From Prostheceraeus crozeri (taxonomy: Eukaryota; Platyhelminthes; Polycladida; Euryleptidae), in NCBI GenBank assembly GCA_907163375.1, contig CAJQUW010008995.1, forward strand, positions 248,001 to 312,000: a DNA stretch of 64,000 bases. The letters run 5' to 3'. The position numbers were made by a program, and so were the translations under genes. A model generated the notes under the pieces. The model did not search any database and was not told the DNA's origin. It saw only the letters and a program-made list of their open reading frames with translations. Of the stretch, positions 3,780-57,317 are shown piece by piece; position 1 is the first letter of the stretch; each line of letters starts with the position of its first letter.

Positions 3780-4829
3780 CTAGCACAGAAAAACAACGCA
3801 TGTAGCAGATTCAACTTTAATAGCGCGTGTGACCCCTCTAGCTCCAATACATTCAGTAATCCGAGATGGCATGGATTCACAAAGTTTCTGAATGAAGGAT
3901 GTTTCAAGGAGAAGCCACTGCTCTGTCAGTTTTTCAGAGAGAATCTTTAGGGACACTGGTGGAAGTGAATAGCGGTCTCTCACTCGCCGCCCAAGCTCGC
4001 CGCAGACTTGTTCAATGAGTGACAAGTCAGGTGAGCTTGCAGGCCAGTCAAGGGTTTGAATGTTCAATCTCCTAACAGTGGCAATGACAGCCGAGGAGCG
4101 ATGTGGTCTTGCGTTGTCGTCTTGGAAGACGAGATCCTCCACCCTGACCACTGGGGCAACAACAGGAAGCACAATTTCATTAAGATACCTCTCTCCAGTC
4201 AACGTGCCTTTGATGATGACTGCTGTCGTTCGTCCGCTATGCCAAATGCCACCCCACAGCATAACACTTCCACCACCATATCTGTCGTGTTCTTTAATAC
4301 AGCATGGGGCAAAACGTTCACCTGGAAGACGATGCACTCTGACAAGACCGTCATTGAAATCCAGAGTGAATCTCGATTCATCGGTCCACAAGACATTCTG
4401 CCAGTGATGGTCATTCCATGAGCGATGGGCATCACACCAGGCAACTCGTCTTCTGTGGTGCTCAAAACTCAATGGAATTAGGACAGTTGGTCGTCGCGAT
4501 TGAATTCCAGCTTCTCGCAATCTTCGGTAAGCCGTTCGAACGCTACAATCTATATTTGAGGCACTCTTCCAGTGTACGACTAGCTTTGGGACTGATACAA
4601 ATCTATTCCTCTTTGCAGCTAAAACTAGACGTGCGTCTGTCTTTCCTGCAGACTTTCTTGGTCGACCAGATGCCTTCTTTTTTTTAACATCTCCTTCTAC
4701 TTTCCATCGACACCACCACCTCCAAACAACGACTCTCGATAGTTCCAGCTCTTCGGCAACACTCGCACAACTTCTACCACAACGAATCATTCCAATAGCC
4801 ATACCTCTGGTAAACTGATTGTGTGCCAT
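3780..4829 (-). CDS. Tc1-like DDE transposase, uninterrupted
   Basis: A single open frame of 349 residues, the normal length for Tc1-family transposases. Residues 1-110 form paired-like helix-turn-helix DNA-binding domains with a basic GRPRKS linker near 55-60. The catalytic core follows: D150 in LWTDESRF, D238 in FQDDNARPH, and E273 in SPDLSLIEQVCGEL. With 34 residues between the second Asp and the Glu, this is the DD34E arrangement that cuts and pastes DNA at TA sites. The start ATG at 4829 has A at -3 and G at +4. I find no convincing pair of terminal inverted repeats nearby, although tgaaacaa-rich stretches occur on both sides. The intact triad implies a recent insertion or an element still able to make protein. 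Confidence 0.93.
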   Translation of the reverse strand: MAHNQFTRGMAIGMIRCGRSCASVAEELELSRVVVWRWWCRWKVEGDVKKKKASGRPRKSAGKTDARLVLAAKRNRFVSVPKLVVHWKSASNIDCSVRTAYRRLREAGIQSRRPTVLIPLSFEHHRRRVAWCDAHRSWNDHHWQNVLWTDESRFTLDFNDGLVRVHRLPGERFAPCCIKEHDRYGGGSVMLWGGIWHSGRTTAVIIKGTLTGERYLNEIVLPVVAPVVRVEDLVFQDDNARPHRSSAVIATVRRLNIQTLDWPASSPDLSLIEQVCGELGRRVRDRYSLPPVSLKILSEKLTEQWLLLETSFIQKLCESMPSRITECIGARGVTRAIKVESATCVVFLC

Positions 4830-20197: not shown

Positions 20198-20580
20198 GAT
20201 TTCAATGGTGATTATTTTGCATGCGGTTGCTAAGGGCCCCATTTCTGCATAGCAACCAGAAAACTAAGCAAGCTACGGTCTCCATTCTTACACCTACCCC
20301 CACTAAATCGACCACGAAGATTTCAATGGTGATATTTTTGCATAGCAACGGTTGCTAGGGGGCTCATTTCTGCATAGCAACCAGAAAACTAAGCAAGCCA
20401 CGGTCTCCATTCTTACACCTACCCCCACTAAATCGACCACGAGGATTTCAATGGTGATATTTTTGCATAGCAGCGGTTGCTAAGGGCCCCATTTCTGCAT
20501 AGCAACCAGAAAACTAAGCAAGCTACGGTCTCCATTCTTACACCTACCCCCACTAAATCGACCACGAGGATTTCAATAGT
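20198..20580 (+). repeat. 125-bp tandem repeat, about three copies
   Basis: The unit runs from gatttcaatggtgatattt through ctcatttctgcatagcaacc and the tacacctacccccactaaat region. It repeats with a period of 125 bp (20316, 20441, 20566) and a slightly shorter first copy at 20198. Each unit carries two tagcaac/gttgcta words, including the palindrome tagcaacggttgcta in the second unit. Copies are over 90% identical by eye. Confidence 0.85.
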
Positions 20581-21136
20581 AATATTTTTTCAACAACGTA
20601 GCTGGGGAACTTGTTTACGTTTAGTAGAAAATGAGTTCTTACATGACTGTATAAGAGTAGGCCTACATAAAAGCTCCAATTTACTAGGCCTATATCTAAT
20701 GATAAAACGTCCATTCAAAATAAAAACCATTATGTAATTACATCATCTTTCTTGCTTACCGAACGGTATCAAGTCACAAGTCTAAATTGAACAAGGCGAT
20801 TGCCTCCGAAGAAAATGGGGTACGTGTCTGTCCGAGTTTTGGTTTCCGGTAAGGTCGGATGAGCAGATCAAGCGCCTAAAGATGTGGTAAAGCGTTCTCG
20901 TTTTAAAATCTTTATTCGAGCTTCAAGACTTCTTCACTCAAAAAACCAATGGGAAGCGTCATCCTTCGCACAACCTGATGACCATGGATGAGAATTCGAT
21001 GAAGTGACTGAGGCATGTTGTAACAATCATATTTTAACTTCACTCGTCCAGTTGTAGCCTACACCATAACAGGAGTAAAAAAAAAAGCGATTTATGCTCA
21101 TTCAGAGGTTCACGGGTATTATGAAGAAAAAAAAAT

Positions 21137-28795: not shown

Positions 28796-29405
28796 TAGAG
28801 TGTCGACTCAAAAAAGTGTCTGTATACAGTGAATTATTATTACCGAAACTTTATTTGAACAGAAAAGCTGAATTTTTGTAAAAAATATATATTACTATTG
28901 ACATGTAGGTATGAGACATCTGCTAATAAGCATCATAGCTGAACTTGAGATGATTATCAAAGGAATTTCATGGACTGCATCATAAAGCAAGTCTTCATGA
29001 AAAAAGGCTGAGATCTTACTGTGCCTTCTTGGCTGAAATTTTTAAGTTTTTATTTCAATTTACAATTGCATGATTTTATGATTCACAAATTTATGTTTAT
29101 TTATGAATAGTGATGTGGCCCCATTTACACCTTTAAAGTTAATTATAATCAATGTATTTTTTTATCAATATGATCAATATAATATTTTGCTCTAACAGTG
29201 GCAGGTACTTTGTGATATAATCATGCTTAAGTCTGAGCATGAAAGTAATAGAAACCTTTCGAATTTAACAAACATTGCATCTCCAAAGTCTGTGATGACA
29301 CTGAGGATCTGTATTACTCCTTCTGTATTGCTATCATGATCAGTCAATTCCGCGGTAATTTCTTCAAAATTGCAAAAATTTTCATATCTCACATTTGTTA
29401 CAACG
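28796..29405 (+). repeat. family A, left arm around unit U
   Basis: Plus-orientation family A unit, starting gtagatagagtgtcgactca and running to tcatatctcacattt, where it is broken by the 1.83-kb unit U. With the opposite-orientation arm at 31275-31712 it makes a 2.9-kb structure with long inverted arms (about 600 and 430 bp). Confidence 0.75.
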
Positions 29406-31229
29406 GTGACAAAAAAAGCAACATCTGTCACGGCAAGTAGCGTCTGAAGCATTTTACTGACATTCTCTGAAGTAAAATGGATGACATTTTAGAACTTCAT
29501 AACATCCCTTCTTTGAAGATCGTAAAAGATATTTGCCTCTGATATGTCTAATATGTATATGATATTTGCCTCTGAACGTCGCATTCCATCCAGGATTTTG
29601 GCGAAATCTGAATGGGATACAAAATTAACTCACATATACTATTATTAGTTAAATTCCCAATGACAAAGAGAAATTTGATCATTCACAATGGCTTGACTAT
29701 TTCGGTTATCGTCGACGATACAACTTAACAAAATCGAACCTCTGTGACATTGCTGCTGATTCATAATATTTCCCGTTGCTTTGGTCAAATATCTGTTTCA
29801 ATCGAATACTTCAGTCAGGAAGATTTCACTTGCTCTCGAGGAAAGGTTGCAAATTCGCTCGAACAATGGTGTAATCATTCCGATCTGATCAGATGTGTGG
29901 ATGCGCACTTTTTAATAAAACAAGTTGAACTTCTGTAAAAAACTAATTTTGAGGACCAGTGGCGTCTTCTCCGTACCTGCGAGGCCTTCGGCGCATCCTC
30001 AAAAATGATTTTCCAACAATTGTAAAAGTGAAAAGTGTCATCATTCATTTAAATTCGATAGCTTCTCGTGATAGCTGTGCACAGCTTTCCGTCTCAAAAT
30101 CAGACGCTTAATCTCAGAGCTAACAGTTTTGCAGTATGTGCTCGAATTACAGCTGTTTTCTTCGAACAATTAGACACACAAGCTAGTCGTGTGTCCAGAC
30201 AGAGCACTGATGTTCAGACAGCGAAAGAGAGTTGCGTGTGTGTGAGGCCGTAAGCGCACGCGCCCGGGACAATATTGGCTTCCCCGATAGACATAATGCT
30301 TTGCCTTCTCCAGTTTTTGCAATGAAATTCTACGCAATTCTTAATCAAGGCGCGGTATCTAAATATAGTAAGGGAAGTGCAACTCAATTGTTCCCGGATT
30401 CGCTTAAGTCAGAGAGGCCACTACGTCAACAGTAGCAGATGGCTGACGTTCAGACAAGACTGTGATCAGATGATGAGCGTTCTCCAATGAATGCAGAGTA
30501 ATGCATCTGACTCGAAAACCCAGATTCGGTAGAATTCCATAATTTGTTTTTACGTTATTGATGTAACGCTATGTTGAGTACTGCAGATGAGATCATGACC
30601 ACGCCTTTCGTCCGAAGGGAATATACTGAAAAGATGACAGTCGACAAGCAAGGTAGACCAACACCTATGAAATGAAAGTAGTCACTGAGAAAGAAATAAG
30701 AAGCACTACACAAGACATTTTAATGCATCAAATTCAAACATGTGAGTGGCTGACCGGCCGTGAGAAACACAGGAAACTGTTGGCCTTGCCTCCTTTTTTC
30801 TCGAGATAATGTGGTCTCAGCTACTTGAGTAAGGCGGTTAAGCGACATGAGCAATCACTTCTCATGTGCACATTCACTTGGCCTTAAATAATGTTCGGGA
30901 TGATGTTATTAAAAATTCATTTAAATTCATGAAAATTAATGTTGTAACATAAAAGTGTTTGGTATAGAAATAGTATTCCAATGCCGAGTGAAGGCCTATG
31001 GTCTGGGAGCACGCGACGCCACTGTTGAGGACTCTTCTAAGATGATTGTAATTGAGCAGATTCGTGCAGCTGGCCTTTATCCTGCAACTTTGGTTAAGAG
31101 CTTCAGCTATTGTCATTCCAGTCAACGAGTACTATGTGTGTATCTCACAAAACTAATCAAATGAAAATCTCAGACAGATAATGGCAACAAACTTTGACTG
31201 CAAGAAGCAAAATGTCTATGTCGTCATAC
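29398..31229. repeat. repeat unit U, copy 1 (1.83 kb, uninterrupted)
   Basis: Begins ttgttacaacggtgac and ends gtcgtcatacctagaatat. The whole length recurs at 41291-44966 with only a few differences per hundred bases, but there it is split by a P element. ORFs are short (up to 83 codons) and conserved only because the DNA is. No protein family is recognised, and I cannot define TIRs. The site gtcgtgtg at 30186-30193 is the unoccupied version of the P insertion site. Confidence 0.8.
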
Positions 31230-31274
31230 CTAGAATATTGTCGTACACGATTGTCGAATACGACACGTAGGCCT

Positions 31275-36350: not shown

Positions 36351-37299
36351 GGTCGCACACGGATTGTTAGATCTTTAGAAGACGCAGATTGCTGAAATAT
36401 GTTGTAGATTCTTGCTGGAGGCGATCTATTGTAAATTATTTTATCAAAAATTAATGTCCACGTTCTGTACTGTTGCAATATTCATGGTCGTTCTGGTGCT
36501 CTATTAAAATGAATGTTGGATTTCTATAATTGAAGTTTTAAGTATTGACAGTGAGAAGCCGTAAGCTTTTGATAGGTTTATCAGCAGCAAACATGTTTCA
36601 GTAGGCAAGCTACCATCATCAGTGACAACGGTCAATAAACAAGGATGCATATATACAGTGCGAATGAGACAAGAAAGATCAATATAGGAAAAGCGGCTGT
36701 GATTGGCTGCGGTTATTCATTAGGTACTGTGAATGAAGGACTTTATGTACAATGATTCAGCAATTTTCGTGTATGGAGTGCGAATGAGAATTTTAAAATT
36801 ATCTTTATTTGGGATGTGAGCATGAAGAGATATTTCGGATGCTGGTCGACCTTTCACGTGTTCGTTTATCCTAGTGAAAATATGGCGACGGGTTTCACCG
36901 ACGTAGCATTGACTGCAATGCTCACAAGTATACTTATACACTACGGAAGATAACTCATTGAAAGGAATTTTATCTTTATTGCTTATCATGTTTTGTGTTT
37001 TGTATGTGTTCAAGGCAATTCTTAAAATACTATTTTTTAAAGCACTATTTATGTGGCGAATATTACGTTTTATTCGAGAAAGAAGAGTTGAAATATAGGG
37101 GAGCTTCCAAAATATTTCAGTTTTTTCTCTAGATTCTATTTTAGTCTTAGGATTATCACAACGCTAAAAGACTTTATTTATTCTATCCGGATGATATCCG
37201 TTTTGAATAAAAATATTCCTAACTTGGTTTTTGTTACAATCGCGGTCGGCAGGGAGACTGTTTAGTTTTTGAGATCTACTGTACAAGGCTTTAATCGCG

Positions 37300-38490
37300 T
37301 TGTTCTCTTTCGATTTTCCGTATGAAAATCCTTACTTAGTCAGTTTCGATGCTGTTCAACTTTTCACTAATATTCCAGTCAATGACACTATCGACCATAT
37401 AATTAGCTTAGTCAATTTTGATAGATTTCCTATTAATGATAATACTTTGCGTACTCTCTTGCAACTCGCTTGCACTAATGTGCCGTTCCTGTTCAACAGT
37501 AGAAACTACCTTCAAAAGGAAGGAATGAGTATGGGATCCTCCCTTGCACCTCTTTTGGCTGAATTCTCTTTAAATATTATAGAAAGTAAAATGCAAATGC
37601 CGGACTTTTACATTAGGTACGTCGACGATATTTTAGCAGTCTTTCGGTCTCGAACCGAAGCCCTCACTTTTTTAGACCAGCTCAATGATGTTAATTCATC
37701 TCTTCAATTTACGATAGAAGAACCCATAAATGACTCTATCAATTTTCTAGATATGAATATTTTCATAAAAAATGGCAAATTTGAAACCAATTGGATAACA
37801 AAAGAAACCAATACTTTATTGCATACTCATAGCAACTCCTACAGTCCTGACTCTTGTAAGAACAACGCGATTAAAGCCTTGTACAATAGATCTCAAAAAC
37901 TAAGCAGTCTCCCTGCCGACCGCGATTATAACAAAAACAAAGTTAGGAATATTTTTATTCAAAACGGATATCATCCGGATAGAATAAATAAAGTCTTTTA
38001 GCGTTGTGATAATCTTAAGACTAAAATAGAATCTAGAGAAATAACTGAAATATTTTGGAAGCTCCCCTATATTTCAACTCTTCTTTCTCGAATAAAACGT
38101 AATATTCGCCACATAAATAGTGCTTTAGAAAATAGTATTTTGAGAATTGCCTTGAACACATACAAAACACAAAACATGATAAGCAATAAAGATAAAATTC
38201 CTTTCAATGAGTTATCTTCCGTAGTGTATAAGTATACTTGTGAGCATTGCAGTCAATGCTACGTCGGTGAAACCCGTCGCCATATTTTCACTAGGATAAA
38301 CGAACACGTGAAAGGTCGACCAGCATCCGAAATATCTCTTCATGTTCACATCCCAAATAAAGATAATTTGAAAATTCTCATTCGCACTCCATACACGAAA
38401 ATTGCTGAATCATTGCACATAAAATCATTCCTTCATTCACAGTACCTAATGAATAACCGCAGCCAATCACAGCCGCTTTTCCTATATTGA
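37300..38490 (+). pseudogene. Penelope-like RT + GIY-YIG endonuclease, one stop
   Basis: One frame runs through the whole block, interrupted only by TAG at 37999-38001. The RT part begins inside the fingers/palm (YLVSFDAVQLFTNIPVNDTI, the first Asp motif). It continues with EGMSMGSSLAPLLAEF and the active-site box IRYVDDILAVF, then INFLDMNIFI. After the stop, a linker leads to the endonuclease: YKYTCEHCSQCYVGETRRHI, then FTRINEHVKG. This is the GIY-YIG variant of Penelope-like elements, with the Cys pair before YVG and the conserved Arg and Glu-His. The protein would nick the target and copy the RNA. The missing N-terminus and the stop make this copy dead, but it is young. Confidence 0.88.
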
Positions 38491-38546
38491 TTTTTCTTGT
38501 CTCATTCGCACTGTATATATGCATCCTTGTTTATTGACCGTTGTCA

Positions 38547-38574
38547 CTGATGATGGTAGCTTGCCTACTGAAAC
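38547..38574 (+). ncRNA. hammerhead-ribozyme-like core
   Basis: CTGATGA at 38547-38553 and GAAAC at 38570-38574 enclose a small hairpin (gtag/ctac with a cttgc loop). These are the two conserved strands of a hammerhead catalytic core, in the right order. The mirror copy lies at 36595-36621 in the reversed arm. Hammerhead motifs are documented in Penelope-like elements. Stem II is short and not perfectly adjoined, so self-cleavage is uncertain. Confidence 0.45.
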
Positions 38575-38679
38575 ATGTTTGCTGCTAATAAACCTATCTG
38601 AAGTTTTAAGCTTCCGGTATTACTGCTGCACAGACTGCGTCAGTAATATCTTCGCATATTATGTGACAAAGAATTCGAA

Positions 38680-40068: not shown

Positions 40069-40801
40069 CTGCAAAACATAGTGATTTATTTGACCTTCAG
40101 ACTTTTCTCATTCCAGCCTAAGCAGGACTCTAGTCTATAGCAGAATTCAAGTCATCCCATTCGGTGTCTGCATATAGTGATTGCTAACACTGCATGGCAG
40201 CGAAGGAATGCCCAAAAGCGATTCGCACATCGCTACGATCGTAGTGATCGATATAATAAACAATTTACTGCTGCATATGCCTACGATTGTGCGTGAAAGC
40301 GCAAAAATTGTGCAATAGAAATTCAAAATTCTACAAAATTTTGTTATTAATTTCGGCTGACATGAAGAGTGTAGTCACCGCATAATTTCATTCATCTGTC
40401 TCCGTACATGTGATGCAGATTTCCTATCACTTTATTTGACCTGTAAAGCAGATTATTGCCGGCGGGGAGACAATATTTGCTCCATTGCACTGGAGGGAGC
40501 ACAATCTATGCCAATAACGACTGATCGTGTCCTGCTTTAGTATGGACTAGATCTCTGTGTGCTCCCGGTTCACCAGAATAACACGTGTGCCACCGAGTTA
40601 GTGAAAACTATATTTACGCATAACATGAAATATTGTCGTAGTGATGCAGCAGACACTAAAGATCTACATGTAACATTTAACATACGCATCAGATAGAACA
40701 GCAAAAACAAGCTACTCACAATTCGCCAAAAGTAACCACTAGTAGAGTACAAACAAAAGAGGAGACATAAAACACAACACTGTGAATAGATGCTTTTACA
40801 A

Positions 40802-41087
40802 TGAGGATGAGAAAGCAAAAATGCGGCACTCCCTTTATTAATGGCTTTAATAAAATTAGTTGCTAAAAATATATACACGGCAAACGTTTCGCGACGCAGT
40901 CGCTGCCTCAGTGCACTAAAAAGAAGGCACCTTCTTTTTAGTGCACTGAGGCAGCGACTGCGTCGCGAAACGTTTGCCGTGTATATATTTTTAGCAACTA
41001 ATTTTATTAAAGCCATTACTAAAGGGAGTGCCGCATTTTTGCTTTCTCATCCTCATCATGAACACCCTCCCGTATAAGGCTATCAAC
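40802..41087. repeat. near-perfect palindrome (126-bp arms) with 15-bp TSD
   Basis: Left arm 40802-40927 and right arm 40930-41055 are reverse complements with one mismatch in 126 and a 2-bp centre, followed by 32 bp of unique tail. The 15-bp sequence tagatgcttttacaa is repeated at 40787-40801 and 41088-41102, an exact target-site duplication. Each arm carries cactgaggcagcgactgcgt and cgcgaaacg, the 'ctga...gaaac' layout of Penelope-type hammerhead motifs. The unit therefore looks like a minimal retroelement end inserted head-to-head. The arms create mirror-image ORFs that are artefacts. Confidence 0.85.
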
Positions 41088-42417
41088 TAGATGCTTTTAC
41101 AACTGATCAAGCTAAATTTCTATTCAAATGCTTTTGATAATCTTAGACATATCAATCACAATCTGTCCTTCATCATCATAGCACGTCGTCAAATAAATTT
41201 CTCAATGCAACTCGTGCATAGGAATGCTACATCCATGTTTCATCATAACATTCGAACTCCAATTTTCAAAAACTCCTCCACTGTTGTTTTGTTACAACGG
41301 TGACGAAAAAGCAACATCTGTCACGGCAAGTAGCGTCTGAAGCATTTTACTGACATTCTCTGAAGTAAAATAGATGACATTTTAGAACTTCATAATATCC
41401 CTTCTTTGGAGAACGTAAAAAGATATTTGCCTCTGATATGTCTAATATGTCTATGATATTTGCCTCTGAACGTCGCATTTCAGCCAGGATTTTGGCGAAA
41501 TTTGAATAGGATACAAAATTAACTTACATATATCATTACTAGTTAATTCCCAATGACAAAGAGAAATTTGATCATTCACAATGGCTTGACTATTTCGGTT
41601 ATCGTCGACGATACAACTTAACAAAATCGAACCTCTGTGACATTGCTGCTGATTCATAATATTTCCCGTTGCTTTGGTCAAATATCTGTTTCAATCGAAT
41701 AATTCAGTCAGGAAGATATCACTTGCTCTCGAGGAAAGGTTGCAAATTCGCTCGAACAACGGTGTAATCATTCCTGATCTGATCAGATGTGTGGATGCGC
41801 ACTTTTTAATAAAACAAGTTGAACTTCTGTAATAAAAACTAATTTTGAGGACCAGTGGCGTCTTCTCCGTACCTGCGAGGCCTTCGGCGCATCCTCAAAA
41901 ATAATTTTCCTACAATTGTAAAAGTGAAAAGTGTCATCATTCATTTAAATTCGATAGCTTCTCGTGATAGCTGTGCACAGCTTTCCGTCTCAAAATCAGA
42001 CGCTTAATCTCAGAGCTAACAGTTTTGCAGCATGTGCTCGAATTACAGCTGTTTTCTTCGAACAATTAGACACACAAGCTAGTCGTGTGCACAGATCTAG
42101 AAAGGGATAGATGGACTACTCCCCGATTTGCGTGAAGCCTGCTTTCCCTGCCACGCGCGCGCGCACAATCCCGGTATGTAGGCAAGAAACAAATGTTGGC
42201 ATGCACGTGTCTGTGAGAATGTAATGATACCAAGCACATTAACTTTCAACGACGATAATAATTGATAACAAATCATAGGAATGTTGACAATTCCTGATGA
42301 CCTGCAATGTCATACTTTCTCACTCATCATGATTGCTTACATAAATGTAGCTTAAATAGAAAATTAGGTGCATGCGAAGTAACGTTTTATTCAAAAGAAA
42401 ACTCGGTAAATCAAAAT

Positions 42418-42867
42418 TTATTTGCCTCTAAAGAGAATCAGCTTCATTGCCTGCTGACGTGATAGGACTTTTGAATTAAAGATATTACGTTCAAAATATA
42501 TCTTACCGTACCGAAAGAGGCGAATTTTGACATAATTCGACGTGATCAGCCTGATAAGTTTTGTTAGATGATCAGAGTCTTGATGAAAGTCATGGTCATA
42601 AAAGTGGTCTGCAAAAAGGGTAGGAAATAAAGTTTTTACATCAACTTTCTGCAGGACAAAATGTTCAATTTTCAAATCAATGTTCGATACTGTGGGGAGG
42701 AGGGTCACATCGTGAACACCCGGAAAAAGAGAGCGGAAAGCTACTTCAGCAATTTTTACGATACTATATACAGCGAAACTAGGAGTGGATAGGCCTCCTC
42801 TCTGCTTTGCTGAAAACAAACGGATGAAAGATACATCCTTCATACTGTCTTCATCGCTCTCAAACAA
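42418..42867 (-). CDS. P-element transposase C-terminal segment
   Basis: A 149-residue frame ending at 42418, followed by AATAAA on the minus strand at about 42386. It includes RLFSAKQRGGLSTPSFAVYS and the following VKIAEVAFR helix, which is the 'RGGL..PS......v...E..f' block near the end of THAP/P transposases. The upstream boundary is unclear: an intron from the gtaagc donor at 42968 or the deletion junction itself. No catalytic Asp region is found between the THAP segment and this one, in about 100 bp of AT-rich DNA. Confidence 0.75.
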   Translation of the reverse strand: MFESDEDSMKDVSFIRLFSAKQRGGLSTPSFAVYSIVKIAEVAFRSLFPGVHDVTLLPTVSNIDLKIEHFVLQKVDVKTLFPTLFADHFYDHDFHQDSDHLTKLIRLITSNYVKIRLFRYGKIYFERNIFNSKVLSRQQAMKLILFRGK

Positions 42868-42967
42868 CGCACCATTGCATATTGCATTTAAATATTATAT
42901 TTATTGTTATATATTATTTTTTTAGCTTTGTATACATTGTGGTCCGCTAATCGACTGATTATCTTGC

Positions 42968-43459
42968 TTACCGACCAACTTGAGTAGCCTGATCCATGCG
43001 TTTTGGAATTGCGCGGATATCTGAGTCTTGATCCACATCCATGGGTTCCGATGATGGCCCTGGTGACTGAGACTCGGCAGAAGTTGCATCAAAAGACTGC
43101 TCAAAAAGATTGCGCTGCTTTGGGGATCGACGCTTTTTGGAAGGTGTTTGCAGATAAAGGGGGAACGCTTCAAAAACAGTAGGCACTGCGTCATCCTTCA
43201 GCTTCCTTCGAGTTCTGGGGCGAGTTCCATACTGTCCCTTGTCATGAATAACACTTACGCCCTTTTTATAGTCATCATCGGTGAAATGAACACTGCATAC
43301 GCGTGATGAATTCTTAGAGGGAGTAAAGTTCTTACGTCGAATGTTATGAAGCCACTTCTTCAACAATTCGGGGTTTGAGAACGGAAAGGCGTGAAAAGAA
43401 ATGTTAGAGTTTTTCGAAGCACGGTTCTGGTATCGCGGAACACAACATGAGGTAACCAT
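42968..43459 (-). CDS. THAP-domain segment of P-element transposase
   Basis: A 163-residue frame from ATG 43459. Residues 1-75 are a THAP domain: MVTSCCVPRYQNR start, SFHAFPFSNPELLKKWLHNI (the 'F..FP......W' core), then RVCSVHFTDDDY (the C-x2-H half of the zinc site). AVPTVF follows at about residue 92, the conserved box at the end of THAP domains. The usual second cysteine of the C2CH zinc site is replaced (PRYQNR instead of PxCxNR), so metal binding may be weakened. After a basic, Ser/Pro-rich linker the frame ends at ggtcg/gtaagc, a good splice donor at about 42970. The protein may therefore be spliced on to the C-terminal segment downstream. Role: DNA binding of the transposase or of a repressor. 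Confidence 0.85.
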   Translation of the reverse strand: MVTSCCVPRYQNRASKNSNISFHAFPFSNPELLKKWLHNIRRKNFTPSKNSSRVCSVHFTDDDYKKGVSVIHDKGQYGTRPRTRRKLKDDAVPTVFEAFPLYLQTPSKKRRSPKQRNLFEQSFDATSAESQSPGPSSEPMDVDQDSDIRAIPKRMDQATQVGR

Positions 43460-45120
43460 TTCTCAAGAAATGAAATTTCTGTAAACAGTTTTGCAAACGT
43501 GTTCGAAAATTTTATCTTTCTTATGCCTTTTGAACACATGTTTCGGATTAAGAGTAGGAGAATTGATAGCAATTGCCTAGGGCGTGAGGATTTTATTTAA
43601 TGATAAAATCGCCATTTAGCGTCGGTAGAATGCATGTCAAATTCAATTTTATCTTGTTGAAGTATTGCGACATCGCCACACTGTGTTATGACACTCATCC
43701 CAGCTTCGTTAAGTACACAAATTTTGTCACCCTTATCAAATAAATCATCATCAATTGAAAACAACACCACAGGTGTCAATTGCGATCAGCTCAGCGGCCG
43801 TCATTTCTTGCCTACATACCGGGAGCAGGCGTGGCGGCGATGGGAAGTTTTCAGGCTTCACGGCTGAAATAGGGAAACGCGGAAAGCAGTCCATCTATCC
43901 CTTTCTAGATCTGTGGTCGTGTGTCCAGACGGAGCACTGATGTTCAGACAGCGAAAGAGAGTTGTGTGTGAGGCCGTAAGCGCACGCGCCCGGGACAATA
44001 TTGGCTTCCCCGATAGACATAATGCTTTGCCTTCTCCAATTTTTGCAATGAAATTCTACGCAATTCTTAATCAAGGCGCGGTATCTAAATATAGTAATGG
44101 AAGTGCAACTCAATTGTTCCCGGATTCGCGTAAGTCAGAGAGGCCACTACGTCAACAGTAGCAGATGGCTGACGTTCAGACAAGACTGTGATCAGATGAT
44201 GAGCGTTCTCCAATGAATGCAGAGTAATGCATCTGACTCGAAAACCCAGTTTCGGTAGAATTCCATAATTTGTTTTTACGTTATTGATGTGACACTATGT
44301 TGAGTACTGCAGATGAGATCATGACCACGCCTTTCGTCCGAAGGGAATATACTGAAAAGATGACAGTCGACAAGCAAGGTAGACCAACACCTATGAAATG
44401 AAGGTAGTCACTGAGAAAGAAATAAGAAGCACTACACAAGACATTTTAATGCATCAAATTTCAAACATGTGAGTGGCTGACCGGCCGTGAGAAACACAGG
44501 AAACTGTTGGCCTTGCCTCCTTTTTTCTCGAGATAATGTGGTCTCAGCTACTTGAGTAAGGCGGTTAAGCGACATGAGCAATCACTTCTCATGTGCACAT
44601 TCACTTGGCCTTAAATAATGTTCGGGATGATGTTATTAAAAATTCATTTAAATTCATGAAAATTAATGTTGTAACATAAAAGTGTTTGGTATAGAAATAG
44701 TATTCCAATGCCGAGTGAAGGCCTATGGTCTGGGAGCACGCGACGCCACTGTTGAGGACTCTTCTAAGATGATTGTAATTGAGCAGATTCGTGCAGCTGG
44801 CCTTCATCCTGCAACTTTGGTTAAGAGCTTCAGCTATTGTCATTCCAGTCAACGAGTACTATGTGTGTATCTCACAAAACTAATCAAATGAAAATCTCAG
44901 ACAGATAATGGCAACAAACTTTGACTGCAAGAAGCAAAATGTTTATGTCGTCATGCCTAGAATATAAGCAAAGCAGGATAGCGCATGTCACTTACTGGAC
45001 TTGGCAGATGTCGTCGCAGTACTAAAATGTGAATTATCATCACACTGATGCAGAGATCATAGCAAGGGATGTATCAAACTTCACAAAGCATACAGTTTTC
45101 GCTGCAAGTACAAAGGAACT

Positions 45121-46914: not shown

Positions 46915-47615
46915 AAGGAAAATTCTTCATGATTTTTCATGAGCTTTTTTCTCATATGTATCTCATGAAATTTCATGCGGATTTGGAGCGTTTTCTCATA
47001 AAAATCTCATTAATAAACTAGCAGTTGCTCTTTCATACTTATGAATTGATTTTTCTGGCATTTAGTTACTGAGGCATTCTTAGCCTCGCATTCGCACGCC
47101 ATGTCCACAATGTTATTTCATTCTTCGCAATAATTAACCGTTATTGTTTTTACGATAAGATAATGAACTGTGATTGCATATATCTATATTTTCAACATCT
47201 TGCATTCAACATCTAATTGCAAAGTCAAATTATATATGCATCATTTTGATAAGGCAGTTGCAGATCGCTATGATATATTCTACGAGTATATTGTTGCTTT
47301 TTATCCTTTATAGACTTAAACTTTGAAATTCTTATTGATTGAATAAGTTTTCTTATTACTCCTTCATTTCGCGGCTAGCATGCATACCGTACTACTTGTA
47401 AATTTATTTTCACAAAACCTCATGAATGCTCATAATTTTCGCATGAAATTGACCCCATGATTTTGAGATATTGTCCTCATGAATGTTCTCATTACCACTC
47501 ATTATATTCTCATCAAAGCATAATGAGAACATCATGAGTTAAATATTATTAATTATTTATATTATAATTATAATTATTAAATTTCATGAGTTCTCATGAG
47601 AAGTTTTCGTGATGG
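46915..47615 (-). repeat. repeat family J, copy 2
   Basis: Reverse copy of 22640-23260, longer at its right end. Both borders contain paired tcatgag/ctcatga words (tcttcatgatttttcatgag at the left, catgagttctcatgagaag at the right). It ends about 50 bp before the LDLa exon acceptor. Confidence 0.7.
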
Positions 47616-47663
47616 TAGTAGGCAATTGTCTACATGATCTTCCGCTTCGACTTTCAGCTGCAG

Positions 47664-47996
47664 GGGAAGGACAGGAAGAAATGACATCGTCAGGAGAGAC
47701 TGTCTCTCAGCAGCCTTCAACTTCCCTCCCTCCTCCTGTTTCGTCTGAGGCCCCTCCTGTTCCTTCAAAGTCTTCAGAAGACGTAGATGATGGAACACAG
47801 CTTCTCACGGAAGGTGGGACAGAATTCGAGAAGCGTTCCACCTCTGGCAAATCGGCATGCATGGCGAATGAAGTGATGTGTGGAAGCTCTACGAGTGGAG
47901 AAAATCCAGCAGTCCTCTGTATTCTCAAGAATTGGATCTGTGACGGTGAAGATGATTGCTATAACGGCTGGGATGAGGAGAATTGTCAGAAAACCG
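47664..47996 (+). CDS. Pro/Ser-rich linker plus LDL-receptor class A exon
   Basis: A 333-bp exon begins after the acceptor cgactttcagctgcag (AG 47662-47663) and ends at the donor aaaccg/gtaagatg (GT 47997). Both ends are phase 1, so it is a symmetric shuffling-type exon. The first 70 residues are rich in Ser, Pro, Thr and Glu (a mucin-like stalk with TSLPPPVSSEAPPVPSKSS). They lead into an LDLa module: CMANEVMCGSS, then LCILKNWICDGEDDCYNGWD and EENC. Six cysteines are present, and the Ca-binding signature W-x-CDGEDDC-x4-DE is complete. It is extracellular, part of a receptor or secreted modular protein on the same strand and in the same phase as the Ig exon at 10274. Confidence 0.85.
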
Positions 47997-48009
47997 GTAA
48001 GATGACACA

Positions 48010-48792
48010 ATCTTGACGTCCCTAATTTATCCTATAGAGAATATAAGAACCTGTATTTCTTCAATGCATGCAAATATGAGGTGATGACACTCTTACAGAA
48101 AATAGCTCGTCGCGTGATTCATAGCTGGATTAAGAGTTCGGGCCGAGGCATATATAGTGTCTGAAATAAGTAAGGGGCTTATATGTTCATCAATTAATTG
48201 ATAATAGGAAAAGCTATGCCATCGTCGCAATTTTCCTGTAGCTGAGCCACTTGATAGGCTTTTGAGATTCTTAGTCAAGTAGTTAAGGCCTGACGTAATC
48301 GATTGAATTTACTACATCAATTCATATGACGATTTATTCACGTAATTCTTGGTATTTAGTGTCTCTTTGGTGTTTTCTCTTTTATGGCTTAAGTAAACAC
48401 TATTAAACTTTACTCTGAATAGGACAACAAATCTAATGAGATGCAACATTTTCATGTTGGCCTAGGTCCGATGCGGGTCGCAGAAACCGGTCCGGTTCAA
48501 GCTCTGATGTGACTTATGAGAATATGGAGATTTTTAACCTATCTGTAAGGAGAAGACATTTCATTGATATACAATTAATGATAGAACTATTCAAAGAGAA
48601 AAAAGAGTCTGTACATATAAACAGCAATTACAAATCAGCTTGTTTTAGATTTAGTAGTCGTGATCATTTCCAACCTGATTATTAAATCCTAAATAGAGGC
48701 GAGGAACGAAATATGAAATCTAATCAACTGAGAAGTACAAATTCAAAAATTAAGGAATACATGATGCTTCAGAATACCTCACACTAAAAGGA
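48010..48792. other. no recognisable gene
   Basis: The intron side of the LDLa exon. No further exon or known repeat is identified. Confidence 0.45.
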
Positions 48793-55927: not shown

Positions 55928-57317
55928 CTATGGTAACACAAAAAGAAAGAAAAACATATCAAGGAAAAAATGAGAAAGTAAAGAAGGCCTAAACGATATC
56001 ATGATTTTGTTTTTCTCACCGTCGATCTCAACATCCATTATTTTGTTATTTGGAATGGAAGTTTCAAGTTTATTTTCATTGACTTCTGTAATTTGAATGT
56101 TTGTTGTGGTCGACTTTGTCAATATTTCCGATGTCATTTTCATAGTTTTTTCAGGAATCACATTATACCCATTTATGCAATCAGATCGATGGCCTGTAAT
56201 TTTCTTTGCAGTTTCCTTGCTTCCATGTAGCTTCAATTATTCTACAAACTGCGCTTCGACGTCCGGAATGGTTAATGTAGTGAGCAGAATCCTCCCCTGC
56301 TGCATCCATCAAATTTTTTATCATTGCTTTCAATGTGCTTTGACCAATAGGAGAGTTGAGGTACCACACCTTCTCCGAAAATTTTGGGTGGGCCTGTAAA
56401 GAAAATGCCCCACTCGTATCATTGCTAGGTCGCAAATGTGAAAATTTCTTAAAAAGTTGTATGAGACATCTTCCTTCTACTTTGGCAGGATAAATATTGA
56501 AACATTTTGGTTCAATGTGATGGTCACGTAGTCCTCCTTTGTTGGCTTTTGAAATGTCTTCTTTATAATTTAGAACCTCGGTTTCATCAGGGAGCTTTTG
56601 CAACGTTAGTTGAGAGCCTTCTCCCCACTTCAATTGACGCAGCTCTTGGCCACCTCGCAATCCACAGTTTATCGAAATAAGATACAACAAGGTGCGCGTC
56701 AACTTTTTCGGACAATCACTTCTCAGTACCTTTTTCCCCATAGTTCTTCCTCTAGTTCAGATGAGATAGGCGCTGCTATTTTTCGATTCAAAGAAAGTCC
56801 TTTTGAAGTGGAAATTTTCATGGCAGTATCCAATGCATCTCTGCAGTTCAGGAATAGAGGATCTGTCATCAGCTGCCAATCCAAGAGTCGTTCAAATCGA
56901 ATATATCTTTGAATGCCAAAGAATAGTCTGAGAGCGATCTCCATTTTGTTTTCTTACTTCGTGAAAGAAAAATCTCAAAGCATCCGACAGCTTTTCCTTT
57001 GAAATACAATCCAACTTTTCATGACCATCACTAGATTCTTCTGAAAGATACATGAGCTGTGATGACTCTGAATTCAATATGCTCGCATTTCTCTCGCGTA
57101 TCCAATGGTCGAAAACGTTTCTTACCCACTGATTTTGATATATAGTACCTTTTGGGATTTGTTTTCGTCTTTCTTTTTCGATTTCATCTTCCGTCATAGG
57201 AGTTGAATGACGTGAGGCAACATTGCTTTCCATGGTTGAACCACTTAGAAAGTTTGCTAAGTTATCCAAATCAACATCAAAATCAAAATCATCATCAAGC
57301 AGTGATAGATATGACAT
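55928..57317 (-). pseudogene. Crypton-like tyrosine recombinase, frameshifted
   Basis: Four overlapping minus-strand frames make up a DUF3504/KCTD1-type recombinase. N-terminal (57317-56892): IPKGTIYQNQWVRNVFDHWI and FFHEVRKQNGDRS. Middle (56944-56723): LFFGIQRYIRFERLLDWQ. Catalytic (56741-56181): LISINCGLRGGQELRQLKW (catalytic Arg) and YINHSGRRSAVCRIIEA (H-x-x-R). Last (56236-55928): KKITGHRSDCINGYNV, with the second His and the Tyr nucleophile. All catalytic residues are still recognisable, so the copy died recently, through three indels rather than long decay. The frameshifts lie near 56920, 56735 and 56200. The protein would cut and rejoin DNA by a covalent phosphotyrosine intermediate. 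It is better preserved than, and distinct from, the relic at 16240. Confidence 0.85.

Follow-up and report, generated by a model that had tools for sequence, protein, structure and literature searches.

Results

We analyzed a 64,000-nt stretch of DNA (the window), in which a P element copy of 1826 bp was found at positions 42090-43915. The first 28 bases of the copy (left terminal inverted repeat, 42090-42117, + strand) match the reverse complement of the final 28 (right terminal inverted repeat, 43888-43915, - strand) at 28/28 positions; the left repeat lies at the 3' end of the transposase gene and the right repeat at its 5' end. The next base outward of both repeats is a G, so the 28-bp repeat extends no further. 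When the window was searched with the 28-mer, allowing up to three mismatches, the only two matches were the element's own ends (none in 100 shuffles), which makes this the only copy bearing these ends within the window. Further inside lies a second perfect inverted repeat, TCCCGGTATGTAGGCAAGAAA, at 42169-42189 (+ strand, 51 bp inward of the left terminal repeat) and 43804-43824 (- strand, 63 bp inward of the right one). The original prediction, made from the sequence before this analysis, had described perfect terminal repeats of 28 bp and perfect subterminal repeats of 20 bp; the former proved exact, while the latter are perfect and 21 bp long. When the 150-bp segment inside each terminal repeat was shuffled base by base 300 times, the stretches shared by the two segments reached 10 bp at most.

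The element is bordered by the 8-bp sequence GTCGTGTG, which is identical on the left (42082-42089) and on the right (43916-43923) and to which no strand is assigned. The predicted duplication on both sides is thus present, and the element boundaries that had been given as exact are supported. The + strand of the window contains GTCGTGTG three times, the third time at the empty site, 30186-30193. This site belongs to a host repeat of approximately 1.85 kb that surrounds the element and is found in two copies in the window, both on the + strand, one interrupted by the element (41288-44965) and one uninterrupted (29394-31238). The second copy had been proposed to preserve the unoccupied target, with an alignment of the two copies as the check, and the alignment bore this out: when the flanks of the element were joined with one GTCGTGTG kept and aligned with 29394-31238, 1808 of 1839 aligned bases were identical, and none of the 11 gap columns fell at the junction. 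The gap-free junction with a single GTCGTGTG indicates that the insertion consists of exactly the element plus one additional 8-bp copy of its target.

A precise excision would likewise be expected to leave one clean 8-bp copy, and the site at 30186-30193 could then be read as a scar instead of a pre-integration site. Excision of P elements usually leaves a footprint, however, and this site carries no additional bases; insertion into one of two repeat copies is also the simpler account of a clean site, and we regard the scar reading as very improbable. Inspection by eye of the four ends of the host repeat, covering 30-40 bases per side, revealed no inverted repeats and no duplication, and we leave the repeat as a duplication of undefined kind. 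A near-perfect palindrome with 127-nt arms (99% complementary, 2 nt apart) is located at 40801-41056, just upstream of the interrupted copy.

Two open reading frames (ORFs) on the - strand of the element could be related to P-type transposases. The first (42968-43459) encodes 163 amino acids with a Pfam match to the THAP domain (PF05485, E 1.4e-20), the N-terminal C2CH domain that is a feature of the P superfamily, and its best relatives among solved structures are THAP1 and THAP2. The ORF ends in a splice-donor-like GTAAGC (42966-42971, - strand), which contains the TAA stop codon that would be used if the transcript were left unspliced. Database searching with this ORF yielded two proteins from nine candidates, namely P0005 and a distant protein from Halyomorpha halys. 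P0005 is identical to the window ORF at 162 of 163 residues, and the sole difference is at residue 10, which is Cys in P0005 and Tyr in the window. Residue 10 aligns with a cysteine of THAP1 that is a zinc ligand. Because Tyr replaces the residue aligned with this ligand, the window copy probably has a non-functional THAP domain. The sibling ORF P0005 is intact at this cysteine, judging from its sequence, and could be an allele of the window locus.

The second ORF (42418-42894, - strand) corresponds to the C-terminus of the transposase. By itself it had no Pfam match at E <= 1, and neither the ORF alone nor a two-sequence profile retrieved a significant solved structure. A search with this ORF yielded one relative from 16 candidates, P0001 (56% identical), whose stored PF22824 label was not recovered on rescanning at E <= 1. 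A joint query of both ORFs separated by an X spacer returned three proteins from 880 candidates (P0002, P0003 and P0004). P0002 has 339 amino acids, with matches to TNP-like_RNaseH_C (E 5.5e-18) and THAP9_C (E 6.8e-07), and its residues 187-339, in the THAP9_C region, are identical to the translation of 42421-42879 at 152 of 153 positions. The THAP9-type C-terminal domain of the window copy was therefore recognized through the common part with P0002 and went undetected on the window ORF directly. P0004 also matches TNP-like_RNaseH_C and THAP9_C, with weaker scores than P0002. P0003 is encoded on an ENA contig of 2453 bases and combines THAP and THAP9_C in a single ORF of 353 amino acids, with no match to TNP-like_RNaseH_C. 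The matches of P0003 and P0004 to the window are at 54-56% identity (55-56% for P0003 against the window's two ORFs). Its domain content makes P0003 look like a further P derivative with an internal deletion.

The remaining part of P0002, residues 1-186, had no tblastn match within the window at E <= 1. P0002 shows a modest match to the Drosophila P transposase structure 6p5a (E 0.0049 for the whole protein and 0.016 for the matching stretch), and a hand count of the alignment places its E63 on chain residue 531. E531 is described as a catalytic residue of the Drosophila P transposase (PMC8230255). The equivalent of E531 thus falls within the part of P0002 that is absent from the window, and the window copy keeps its termini and two coding ends without the catalytic part. 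The P/THAP9-type RNase H (DDE) domain is itself only partly present in P0002, as TNP-like_RNaseH_C and the E63 on E531, and the first half of the RNase H fold had no Pfam match in P0002, P0003 or P0004. As P0002 has sequence that the window copy lacks, the two cannot be the same, and from its near-identity to the window ORF we infer that the source of P0002 is a more complete copy carried by the same species. An AT-rich stretch (42880-42967, - strand) is taken to hold the joint of an internal deletion, at which the start of an intron would be joined to the last exon.

Searches for related sequences elsewhere gave no confirmed relatives at the DNA level. Among viral contigs, a protein alignment search for related DNA produced 159 pattern matches, none of them confirmed, and exact searches with 27 bases of the terminal repeat and with the subterminal repeat found nothing. 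Genome contigs searched with P0002 gave 21 pattern matches, again with none confirmed, and an exact search of these contigs with 25 bases of the terminal repeat had no hits.

We also surveyed the other content of the window. No tRNA was found, and Rfam had no match in the window at gathering scores. Pfam was scanned with 68 of the 81 stop-to-stop ORFs of at least 85 amino acids; the other 13, set aside by hand, either shared sequence with further ORFs or were located within the element or the host repeat, except for a few elsewhere. The 68 ORFs matched 19 families at E <= 0.01, including reverse transcriptase, GIY-YIG, THAP, DUF3504, Tc-type transposase and DDE_3. Also among the 19 were LDL-receptor class A, matched once (E 1.4e-07), a number of Ig families (E 6.5e-05 for the best) and weak, unexpected families such as Adeno_E1B_55K and XTBD. 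These domains point to an animal host, and the earlier description of the genome as non-insect-looking stays an impression. A motif scan of the translated window for LDL-receptor-like and Ig-like patterns found nothing; by eye, the ORF at 47600-48013 (+ strand) has a cysteine pattern like that of an LDL-receptor class A exon, and may mark a host gene some 3.7 kb away. Several further repeats and transposon-related ORFs can be seen. An uninterrupted ORF of 349 amino acids at 3780-4829 (- strand) encodes a Tc1/mariner-type transposase (HTH_Tnp_Tc3_2, DDE_3), and at 20198-20589 a 125-bp unit is repeated in tandem about 3.2 times. A reverse-transcriptase ORF (37300-38001) within 36555-38614 is flanked, and partly overlapped, by inverted repeats of 577 nt (98%) and 186 nt (96%), possibly in an inverted Penelope-like arrangement. 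The ORF at 56181-56741 (- strand) matches DUF3504 (E 2.6e-14), a domain that occurs in Crypton-like tyrosine recombinase derivatives.

Discussion

We consider it highly likely that 42090-43915 is a non-autonomous, internally deleted copy of a P-superfamily DNA transposon in an animal genome. The 8-bp duplication and the perfect terminal and subterminal inverted repeats are features of this superfamily. The length of the duplication does not by itself separate P elements from hAT elements, and THAP domains are also found in other transposons, so that membership of a different superfamily, one that makes 8-bp duplications or carries a THAP domain (hAT, Kolobok or Merlin), could be envisaged. This is extremely improbable, given that one set of ends encloses both the THAP ORF and the ORF that matches a protein with THAP9_C and TNP-like_RNaseH_C; moreover, Kolobok targets TTAA, which the duplication is not. 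The cut-and-paste insertion of a P-superfamily element that had been predicted therefore stands, on the ends, the duplication, the empty site, the THAP ORF and the ORF matching a THAP9_C-bearing protein, with the qualification that the copy is internally deleted.

The structure suggests the following history. A longer P element would probably have lost its middle, comprising the rest of the intron, the catalytic RNase H part and the start of the C-terminal domain, perhaps through incomplete gap repair after excision, with both of its ends retained. A full transposase made elsewhere could then have recognized the terminal and subterminal repeats, excised the shortened copy and integrated it, through joins 8 bp apart, into one copy of the 1.85-kb repeat that was already there, and repair would have produced the GTCGTGTG duplication. 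The window copy is an internal-deletion derivative, and since it has no catalytic part it would have needed transposase in trans in order to move; in Drosophila, deleted P copies are mobile when transposase is supplied from elsewhere. Splicing, mobilization in trans, and the manner and time of the deletion are what we infer, and the deletion could in principle postdate the insertion.

The two coding pieces each differ by one residue from their database relatives (152/153 for P0002 and 162/163 for P0005), and between the copies of the host repeat 31 of 1839 aligned bases are different. These figures are compatible with insertion after duplication of the host repeat and with recent activity of the family, which the near-identical database proteins would also suggest; a figure for protein cannot, however, be compared directly with one for DNA.

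Repressors, among them the KP protein of 207 amino acids, can often be encoded by small P elements (PMC7776569), which raises the question of whether the copy has been kept as a putative KP-like repressor source. Its product would be either an unspliced THAP protein of 163 amino acids or a spliced protein with THAP and the C-terminus, binding the ends and blocking the transposase. The uninterrupted THAP ORF terminating in a donor-like GTAAGC fits this proposal, as do P0005, which is the same ORF with its cysteine intact, and P0003, with THAP and THAP9_C in one 353-aa ORF and no TNP-like_RNaseH_C match. Set against them, the window copy lacks the intact THAP domain of a KP-type repressor, with Tyr at residue 10 in place of the presumed zinc ligand, and we think a repressor role for this copy unlikely. 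On a broader and rather doubtful view, P derivatives with THAP and C-terminal domains and no catalytic core (the window copy, P0003 and possibly P0005) might recur in this lineage because truncated proteins regulate transposition; if true, such recurrent truncated regulators would be a parallel to KP outside flies. We retain the reading of an internally deleted, non-autonomous copy that was presumably mobilized in trans.

P elements are already on record from flies, mosquitoes, zebrafish and Ciona (for Ciona, PMC7776569; PMC1562414), and our findings leave the knowledge of these elements unchanged. The locus is a clean case in which the exact ends, the duplication and the empty site of a P element can be seen within one window, and the element could be used to define its family and to seek an autonomous copy.

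Close parallels exist with Drosophila melanogaster P, which has perfect terminal repeats of similar length (31 bp), subterminal inverted repeats, an 8-bp duplication, a transposase with THAP and RNase H domains, and internally deleted copies of 0.5-2.8 kb that include KP (PMC7776569). The same source attributes the duplication to the joining of the two ends by the Drosophila transposase at sites separated by 8 bp, and mentions a transposase source acting on non-autonomous elements (PMC7776569). The two elements differ in their terminal repeats (28 bp here) and subterminal repeats (21 bp here, 11 bp in Drosophila; PMC7776569), and compared with the Drosophila deleted forms the window copy retains the THAP exon as well as the C-terminal end of the coding sequence, though its THAP domain is damaged. 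In Drosophila, 9 and 21 bp separate the terminal repeats from 10-bp transposase sites (PMC7776569), a 12-bp difference equal to that between the spacers of 51 and 63 bp here; we did not use this agreement as evidence, since the two cases have opposite polarity with respect to the gene and the distances refer to different repeats.

Zebrafish Pdre2/Pdre is likewise a non-insect P-like element with ends starting CA, an 8-bp duplication and a THAP9-type protein, and a full-length element occurs there together with multiple internally deleted copies (PMC10983969). Unlike the element described here, with its repeats of 28 and 21 bp and spacers of 51 and 63 bp, Pdre2 has shorter repeats (terminal 13 bp, subterminal 12 bp) and longer spacers (400 bp) (PMC10983969; spacers from PMC7776569). 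The P families of Anopheles gambiae resemble the window copy in their terminal repeats of 27-31 bp, which have fewer than two mismatches in five clades, and in their perfect 8-bp duplications (PMC1562414). The central part of the A. gambiae P-MITEs is unrelated to P (PMC1562414), whereas THAP and C-terminal coding pieces are still recognizable in the window copy.
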